NCBI RefSeq assembly: GCF_001889305.1
Contig: NZ_CP013074.1
Location: 682,001 to 746,000 of the forward strand
DNA from: Dehalococcoides mccartyi
Lineage (GTDB): Bacteria; Chloroflexota; Dehalococcoidia; Dehalococcoidales; Dehalococcoidaceae
Length of the DNA: 64,000 nt
Reading direction: 5' to 3'
A program made the translations under genes and the position numbers. Of the stretch, positions 24,818 through 26,788 are shown in pieces. A model generated the notes under the pieces. That model saw nothing but the letters and a program-made list of their open reading frames with translations. It searched no databases and was not told the DNA's origin. The number at the start of each line of letters is the position of its first letter. The first letter of the stretch is position 1.

Positions 24818-25621
24818 TTACGAACCGCCCGCCAGTGCTCCGCCAAATACCTGCCAGGCCAGAGCTGTCTTGGCTGTAAGGCTTAGAAATACGTAAACCC
24901 GCTCGCCAAACAGATAATCCCGCCACTTGCCTGATTTCTTGTATTGCAGCCACATGTTTAGAGCAAAGCTGAAAAAGAAAACGAACAGAGTAGGCAGGAT
25001 GAAATAAACAAATGTGGGTATATTTTCGCTGGCTTGTGATATTGCCCCGAAGAAATAAATACTTATAGCCACCCAAGGTATGAATCCGGCAAAACACCCG
25101 AAAGTGTATGAAAGCCAGTTGGTTTTGGATGTGGTCTGGTTATGAAGCTCCATCATCAGGCCAAACAGATTCATAGCAGCATTTGCCCCAAAAATAGCAA
25201 TTAAAGTTGCTACATCATATATACCGCTGAGCATAGCAATCAGGACAATCATTATAGATGAACTTAAAGCATACTCGTACCAGCGGGCGTAGTTAATCCC
25301 TTTTGATAAATTAGTTTTGTACCATTCAAATATACCTGGTAAAGACAGCAAGAAATGGGCTGTGGCTGAAAGCAATAGGAAGATGGCAACCATAGGGCCT
25401 ACTGGCAGGTCAAATAGTACTTCGGGTGGTTTAAAAGTAATCCCGCCGGGGCCGCCGCCGATAAAGTTGGTGGTAACCGGAAGCGAGAAACTGTTGCTGA
25501 GGAATAAGATAAGTATTGATTGGGCTAAATGGAAACTGCCCATGACAAGGTTATAAACCCGCAGTTTCCTAAACGCTTGTGGCTGATTCAGCTCAGGCTG
25601 TTTTACTTTTTTGTTAGCCAT
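24818..25621 (-). CDS. Heliorhodopsin-type seven-helix membrane protein
   Basis: A 267-residue protein with seven hydrophobic helices. In the last helix K251 lies in SLTAKTALAWQ, the retinal Schiff-base lysine of heliorhodopsins; E116 in ARWYEYALSSS is the expected counterion; H31 and H89 match the conserved inner histidines. Spacing E116 to K251 and H31 to E116 agrees within one residue with that known for the heliorhodopsin 48C12 (His23, His80, Glu107, Lys241). Heliorhodopsins bind retinal with inverted topology and are proposed sensors or enzyme regulators. Start ATG 25621 has GGGAGG just upstream. Last gene of a three-gene operon. No retinal synthesis gene is in the window. Confidence 0.9.
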   Translation of the reverse strand: MANKKVKQPELNQPQAFRKLRVYNLVMGSFHLAQSILILFLSNSFSLPVTTNFIGGGPGGITFKPPEVLFDLPVGPMVAIFLLLSATAHFLLSLPGIFEWYKTNLSKGINYARWYEYALSSSIMIVLIAMLSGIYDVATLIAIFGANAAMNLFGLMMELHNQTTSKTNWLSYTFGCFAGFIPWVAISIYFFGAISQASENIPTFVYFILPTLFVFFFSFALNMWLQYKKSGKWRDYLFGERVYVFLSLTAKTALAWQVFGGALAGGS

Positions 25622-25673
25622 ATTACCTCCCGTCACCATTTACAGGTAAAAACAGGTAAACTCTCAAAAAAAG

Positions 25674-26075
25674 TTACAGGCTGTACAGAATGCCGCCTGT
25701 CAGTCCGGCGGCAGCACCCAGGAAAACCCCCCAGCCCATATCTACCAAAGCCATCTTCAGGCTGAAACTATTTAAAGTGGAATAATTGGTCAGGTCATGA
25801 ATACCGTAAGTGATAAATCCGAAAAGACCACCGTAAGCCAGAGCGGCAAAAATATTATCTCCGGCTAGCGGCAAAGCCATAGCTACTATACCTAAACTTA
25901 TAAGCAGGTAGACCAGTATTGCCGATGGCCAGTCCGGTGACATACTCCCTCCGCTCCAGCGGGCAATCGGAGAAAGTTCGGTAACGTAAAATTTTTTGGC
26001 AATCAAGCCAATCCAGACGATATCCAGAACAAAGATAAGCACCAATACTATAAGGTAGACCAGTATACCGCTCAT
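25674..26075 (-). CDS. DUF2177-family membrane protein
   Basis: A 133-residue protein with four hydrophobic helices. The pattern LDIVWIGLIAKKFY at the start and YGIHDLTNYSTL...DMGWG later is that of DUF2177 membrane proteins of unknown function. Its ATG overlaps the stop of the upstream hydrolase by four bases (ATGA), and the heliorhodopsin starts 52 bases after its stop, so the three are cotranscribed. A partner role for the heliorhodopsin is possible but only inferred from position. Confidence 0.8.
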   Translation of the reverse strand: MSGILVYLIVLVLIFVLDIVWIGLIAKKFYVTELSPIARWSGGSMSPDWPSAILVYLLISLGIVAMALPLAGDNIFAALAYGGLFGFITYGIHDLTNYSTLNSFSLKMALVDMGWGVFLGAAAGLTGGILYSL

Positions 26076-26743
26076 CTTTCCTCCTTAGGCGTTCTTTCCA
26101 TGTATTCTATAAACCAGCCACCTGCCAGTTCAGCCACTTTCTCCAGCGCCCCCGGCTCTTCAAAAAGGTGGCCGGCTCCGGGTAGTATGCAAAGATGATT
26201 GAGGGCGCGCATTTGCTTTTGAGCTTGGGTATTAAGCTTTAATACTTGGGAGTCATTTTCACCGACTATAAATAAAGTTGGAGATTCCACCATTGGCAGC
26301 AGTTCTCTGGCAAGGTCAGGCCGCCCTCCTCTAGATACAACCGCCTTTATCTGCCCGGGCAGTAGCGAAGAAGCATAAAGCGCGGCGGCAGCCCCGGTGC
26401 TTGCCCCGAAATAACCTAACGGCAGGTTTTTGGTTTCTTCTTTGGTTTTCAGCATTTCAGTTACTTTAATAACTCTGTCTGCCAGAAAACGGAAATTGTA
26501 GCGGGTATTGGCTATTAGAATATCTACCATATCTTCTTGGGGTGTCAGCAAATCAAATAGAAAGGTAGCTAATCCATAACTATTTAGCTGGTGGGCAACC
26601 TGACGGTTGCGGGGACTCTGGCGGTTTGAGCCTGAGCCATGTACAAATATCACTAGCCCTATGGGTTCCGGCGGTATAGCCAGCTCACCGGGCAATTTGG
26701 TAGTGCCTATCACAACATTTATAGTTTTTTCGTATATCTGCAT
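26072..26743 (-). CDS. Alpha/beta hydrolase, dienelactone hydrolase-like
   Basis: A 223-residue alpha/beta-hydrolase. The oxyanion region VIFVHGSGSNRQSP is near residue 35; the nucleophile elbow is GASTG (GxSxG) near residue 114; candidate acid and His are in VGENDSQ and GAGHLFEE. The family hydrolyses esters or lactones; the substrate is unknown. It has no signal peptide, so it is cytoplasmic. First gene of the hydrolase-DUF2177-heliorhodopsin operon, with its own promoter at 26760-26788 and AGGA as ribosome binding site. Confidence 0.85.
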   Translation of the reverse strand: MQIYEKTINVVIGTTKLPGELAIPPEPIGLVIFVHGSGSNRQSPRNRQVAHQLNSYGLATFLFDLLTPQEDMVDILIANTRYNFRFLADRVIKVTEMLKTKEETKNLPLGYFGASTGAAAALYASSLLPGQIKAVVSRGGRPDLARELLPMVESPTLFIVGENDSQVLKLNTQAQKQMRALNHLCILPGAGHLFEEPGALEKVAELAGGWFIEYMERTPKEER

Positions 26744-26759
26744 AAAAATTCCTGGCTAT

Positions 26760-26788
26760 AGTATAGGATATTACTTTACCAAAGTCAT
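26760..26788 (-). promoter_or_regulatory. Promoter of the heliorhodopsin operon
   Basis: Minus strand ATGACT (26788-26783), 17 bases, TATACT (26765-26760). Transcription start is predicted about 10 bases before the ATG of the hydrolase, leaving a short leader with CCAGGA. Confidence 0.55.

Follow-up and report, generated by a model that had tools for sequence, protein, structure and literature searches.

Within the window, a 64,000-nucleotide stretch of the Dehalococcoides mccartyi genome, three genes follow one another on the minus strand in the order hydrolase, DUF2177, heliorhodopsin (HeR), with HeR last (Table 1). The frames of hydrolase and DUF2177 overlap by 4 bp and a gap of 52 bp separates DUF2177 from HeR, all on the same strand; the open reading frames (ORFs) were found as the initial annotation had described them in calling the set a tight operon of a hydrolase, DUF2177 and a seven-helix protein, and we treat it as a predicted operon. 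Promoter-like sites such as the one listed in Table 1 are no commoner in the region than in shuffled sequence. Among solved structures, the nearest to the hydrolase is 2o2g (E 4e-61). The ORFs flanking the operon read, by their motifs, as a peptide deformylase, a phosphatase-like protein, a YggS-like protein and a membrane pyrophosphatase; no sigma/ChrR pair was found among them, and no UfaD/UfaO-like gene (FAD enzyme, DUF1365) is visible in the operon itself.

Table 1. Features of the heliorhodopsin operon, in coordinates of the window.
Feature	Position	Strand	Details
HeR gene	24818..25621	-	267 aa from the likely start; ORF extends to 25639
Retinal site of HeR			retinal lysine K251, counterion E116, H31, H89, S247xxxK251; numbered from the likely HeR start at 25621
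Shine-Dalgarno-like GGGAGGTAAT	25622..25631	-	abuts the HeR ATG at 25621; read from the sequence
DUF2177 membrane protein	25674..26075	-	133 aa; PF09945, 102 bits
Alpha/beta hydrolase, dienelactone-hydrolase type	26072..26743	-	223 aa; GASTG nucleophile motif (GxSxG kept)
Promoter-like ATGACT-17-TATACT	26760..26788	-	just upstream of the operon; weak

The third gene encodes a heliorhodopsin

The third ORF is a bona fide heliorhodopsin, confirming the identity first proposed for it: a profile search and a structure model, the two analyses named beforehand as able to overturn that proposal, both came out in its favour, as did the alignments to solved structures. The protein matches the Pfam family Heliorhodopsin (PF18761) along the entire profile (1-242 of 242) with 339.3 bits (cut-off 26.7, E 1.4e-101), and the NCBIfam equivalog NF038020 with 344.6 bits (cut-off 100); its best sequence matches in the PDB are TaHeR (6is6, E 8e-79) and 48C12 (E 3e-69). 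The AlphaFold2 model (pLDDT 88.5) superposes on 7u55 with an rmsd of 1.5 Å (Foldseek; TMt 0.93, E 6e-21), all ten Foldseek matches with E <0.001 are heliorhodopsins, and type-1 rhodopsins lie far behind. The 1.52-Mb single-contig genome holds this one copy.

Alignment with 48C12 bears out the heliorhodopsin spacing claimed for K251, E116, H31 and H89, which correspond to its K241, E107, H23 and H80. Numbered along the long ORF (24818-25639), the four residues become K257, E122, H37 and H95; in that numbering S253-K257 aligns with S237 and K241 of 48C12 (the SxxxK motif of helix 7) and E122 with E107 (helix 3). All 51 aligned HeR rows, a few of which are near-duplicates, have the lysine, the glutamate and the SxxxK serine. 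The lysine-rich N-terminus of the window's protein fits an inverted topology, with the N-terminus in the cytoplasm, and is no proof of it.

In 12 aligned rows, leucine stands in place of the two inner histidines (48C12 H23 and H80), the pair changing together. These rows (L007-L010, L045-L049, L052, L054 and L082) belong to HeR clade II, defined below, of the order Dehalococcoidales, and keep the retinal lysine and the counterion.

Host distribution and chromophore supply

The premise that the host is an organohalide respirer holds, since the window genome contains 27 matches to the reductive-dehalogenase family PF13486 and all 11 genomes of its family, the Dehalococcoidaceae, have matches. 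HeR is present with an intact reading frame in ten of the eleven; in a sample of 393 genomes from the class, 76 have it. A literature search on HeR in Dehalococcoides found nothing, and one on light damage to Dehalococcoides corrinoids found nothing usable.

Some irregular cases deserve mention. The sole family genome without HeR, G007, is also without DUF2177. Two full-length HeR genes each occur in G178 and G191, with a third, partial match in G178, and in-frame TAG codons break the HeR matches of G120 and G387, which may be pseudogenes or assembly errors.

Phytoene/squalene synthase (PF00494) catalyses the committed step to carotenoids. It was found in none of the 11 family genomes, with 7 of 14 control genomes positive, and the RPE65-type carotenoid oxygenase was likewise found in none of the 11, with positive controls; Blh (PF15461) gave no match in the family in a search that matched no control genome either and so ran without a positive control. 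What had been noted for the window, that it contains no carotenoid genes, extends for the searched carotenoid and retinal genes to the whole genome and the family. In the class at large, 61 of the 76 HeR genomes are without a PF00494 or RPE65 match (the RPE65 search covered 343 of the 393 genomes), making HeR without recognisable retinal synthesis the rule. Class genomes that do have PF00494 mostly show two matches, often adjacent, a pairing that we take to recall hopanoid HpnC/HpnD rather than carotenoid synthesis.

Since the family yielded neither phytoene synthase nor RPE65 nor Blh, retinal, if there is any, is probably scavenged from neighbours, the plainest reading of these gene inventories. 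No chromophore source having been found, the cell may contain HeR in its apo form, which counts against the light-dependent role proposed below.

We consider it unlikely that the HeR works independently of the known retinal pathway, whether through an undescribed oxygen-independent route to its chromophore or with a non-retinal ligand at the lysine and signalling in the dark. Just as doubtful is the broader proposal that the fold operates in the dark and serves DUF2177 and the hydrolase as a structural or signalling partner, either without retinal or with some other ligand (another aldehyde, for instance, or a lipid). A light-poor habitat, the want of searched retinal and carotenoid genes in the family and in most HeR genomes of the class, and the purifying selection that acts on HeR nonetheless (see below) would all suit such a protein; however, it is difficult to account for an invariant Schiff-base lysine, counterion glutamate and SxxxK serine unless the ligand is of the retinal type, and retinal was present in the rhodopsin-bearing actinobacterium Aurantimicrobium minutum even though it has no known retinal genes (PMC7734400).

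DUF2177 recurs beside heliorhodopsins of two clades

Both neighbours in the operon had been put forward as candidate partners of the HeR. The case for DUF2177 has grown stronger, as it pairs with HeRs of more than one clade and also in a second phylum, whereas the hydrolase was seen next to HeR in no genomes but the three of the window's genus. The family has seven DUF2177 genes, and each of them has HeR within 2 kb, on its own strand. A second genus has the arrangement DUF2177-HeR-DegV-x-DUF1295 in G003 and G009 and HeR-DegV-DUF1295-DUF2177 in G005 and G010, and in G104, from the same order, DUF2177 stands directly upstream of HeR. The HeRs of these genomes separate in a quick tree (SH-aLRT 99) into clade I (the window's genus, G003 and G009) and clade II (G005, G010 and G104), with 47-50% identity between those of G003/G009 and G005/G010; DUF2177 is common to both clades, and the four genomes of the second genus also share DegV and DUF1295. 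The presence of the same partners beside two HeR clades is best explained either by HeR having been swapped while the cassette stayed or by the set having been assembled repeatedly, and under both accounts the association of these partners with deeply split HeRs makes the HeR-DUF2177 link look functional. Class-wide co-occurrence of the two (18 of 34 genomes, Fisher 4e-6), a figure that ignores kinship, is used as support only.

In the DUF2177 tree, the window copy groups with a Legionella plasmid copy (99/98), apart from its family relatives, with long branches involved. Monophyly of all HeR-linked DUF2177 sequences is weakly rejected (p-AU 0.03), with values of 0.09 for the family alone and 0.12 for the clade-I-linked copies; our search for viral relatives of DUF2177 found none.

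Several further neighbourhoods were observed. Outside Chloroflexota, a Candidatus Dojkabacteria contig (L138:1590-2908) carries DUF2177 134 bp upstream of HeR. DegV-family genes recur close to HeR in Chloroflexota (L037, L038, L039, L042, L043, L066, L067 and L131; divergent in L142 and L156), and DegV does not figure in the ten HeR operon groups of PMC11109279. Directly upstream of the HeR of G182 (L072), a 322-aa ORF that ends at the HeR start, with overlapping ends, encodes a MerR regulator with two B12-binding domains; its CarH-like make-up suggests that a cobalamin photoreceptor may share an operon with HeR.

The partner might instead be the hydrolase: HeR could regulate it directly as a soluble enzyme, with DUF2177 a bystander and the process metabolic rather than photo-oxidative. 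We regard this as improbable. Direct regulation of enzymes has precedents, in that HeRs bind and light-regulate their operon partners glutamine synthetase (PMC9529153) and photolyase (PMC9769723) by experiment, and the hydrolase of the window retains its GxSxG motif, overlaps DUF2177 and belongs to a type that PMC11109279 places among HeR operon groups; but its adjacency to HeR is confined to three congeners, while DUF2177 recurs with two HeR clades and in a second phylum.

Selection on the operon

Among the three congeners, dN/dS of HeR is 0.046-0.083 at synonymous divergence of up to about 0.9, and values for DUF2177 and the hydrolase are similar. HeR is under strong purifying selection, and values this low indicate a gene kept by selection. 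A dark anaerobic lifestyle, the failure to find chromophore genes and the HeR-less G007 might be taken to suggest that HeR is left over, without a present role, from an ancestor that lived in the light; given such constraint, pocket residues that do not vary and a frame intact in 10 of 11 genomes, this is very improbable.

DUF2177 in light and singlet-oxygen clusters

Elsewhere, DUF2177 keeps company with genes of the response to light and singlet oxygen. Eight of nine annotated plasmid loci place it with photolyase and/or sigma-ChrR, a CFA synthase-type methyltransferase, DUF1365, an FAD oxidoreductase and DUF1295; the ninth, in Neorhizobium, is the exception. The alphaproteobacterium Caulobacter vibrioides also carries DUF2177. 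In Rhodobacter, the counterparts of the FAD and DUF1365 proteins are UfaD and UfaO, O2-requiring enzymes of furan fatty acid synthesis (PMC7380195). In Chlamydomonas, transcripts of DUF2177, DUF1295 and DUF1365 rise about 8- to 11-fold with singlet oxygen (table values of 3.0-3.5, taken as log2), a SAK1-dependent rise of which hardly any is seen in the sak1 mutant (PMC4067076).

Two genomes of the class connect this setting to HeR. One strand of G011, from the Dehalococcoidia (L071:1542-7660 / L204), reads epimerase-x-DUF2177-SDR-FAD amine oxidase-DUF1365-MFS-HeR, the UfaD-like FAD amine oxidase and UfaO-like DUF1365 accompanying DUF2177-SDR; in G189, HeR lies within about 10 kb of a photolyase and the gene set of G011. 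Within the class, then, a single locus can hold both heliorhodopsin and the photo-oxidative cluster.

Common descent of the window's hydrolase and the hydrolases of alphaproteobacterial ChrR clusters was considered and dropped, no homology being detectable; this parallel is accordingly not used as evidence of common descent.

Proposed role of the operon

The reading we favour, at roughly even chances, is that the operon is a reduced module for membrane protection against light and photo-oxidation, with HeR as its light sensor. The HeR would take up retinal made by other members of the community, or gain it by another route, and would act as light sensor in place of sigma-ChrR; when illuminated, it would alter the activity of the co-encoded DUF2177 membrane protein and of the cytosolic dienelactone-hydrolase-type enzyme, and these two would act on membrane lipids, protecting or remodelling them, once a cell that normally lives in the dark and is sensitive to oxygen is exposed to light. 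We infer retinal binding in vivo, light as the signal, direct contact between the partners and an output in membrane lipids, the putative tie of DUF2177 to lipids coming solely from gene context.

O2-requiring enzymes would be useless in an anaerobe, which fits a pared-down operon. The glutamine synthetase and photolyase precedents (PMC9529153, PMC9769723), in which HeR acts on its operon partner directly and in response to light, suit the module too. Against the module stand the want of any visible sigma-ChrR or UfaD/UfaO-like gene in the operon, our finding no photolyase in the family, and the alphaproteobacterial cluster hydrolases, which are not detectably homologous to that of the window. 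Singlet oxygen, moreover, requires O2, which such anaerobes avoid, and this too weighs against it. HeR-bearing SAR202 isolates, of the same class as the window's host, are inhibited or killed by light (PMC10444878), and an earlier paper proposed that HeR plays a part in oxidative stress caused by light (PMC8612252).

The operon itself is less of an open question than the initial annotation held: a 2024 paper already recognises ten groups of HeR operons, with the alpha/beta hydrolase and DUF2177 among them, and states that these two share an operon (PMC11109279). Three things appear to be new: an organohalide-respiring family in which the searched retinal genes are missing keeps HeR almost throughout, DUF2177 turns up repeatedly next to HeRs from two clades, and DUF2177 forms a bridge to singlet-oxygen clusters, with one locus where both meet. 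The role of heliorhodopsins, which are widespread, is disputed. The Dehalococcoidaceae, a cultivable, dark-living family of small genomes with HeR in nearly every species and none of the searched retinal genes, offer a clean test of where the chromophore comes from and of whether light truly is the signal of HeR, and the repeated pairing with DUF2177 supplies a concrete, testable output for HeR signalling.

Comparison with known systems

The structurally characterized heliorhodopsins 48C12 (6SU3, 6UH3) and TaHeR (6IS6, 7U55) are 46-52% identical to the window's HeR across the whole domain and have in common with it the fold, retinal lysine, counterion, SxxxK motif and inner histidines. Unlike them, it belongs to an organohalide respirer without the searched retinal and carotenoid genes in its genome, and its operon partners differ from the HeR partners tested by experiment. 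The operon groups of PMC11109279, as far as the source was available to us, have the same gene content, hydrolase and DUF2177 with HeR; the same portion is silent on Dehalococcoides, chromophore supply, HeR replacement and the link of DUF2177 to ChrR and photolyase, and its supplementary lists may include the same strains.

The RpoE-ChrR/photolyase/UfaM-UfaD-UfaO clusters of Pseudomonadota contain DUF2177, as the operon does, together with DUF1295, and an alpha/beta hydrolase sometimes adjoins their DUF2177, although its subfamily differs from that of the window's enzyme. Their UfaD and UfaO need O2, and both are missing from the operon (PMC7380195). The sensor in those clusters is sigma-ChrR, whereas the operon of the window has a heliorhodopsin.
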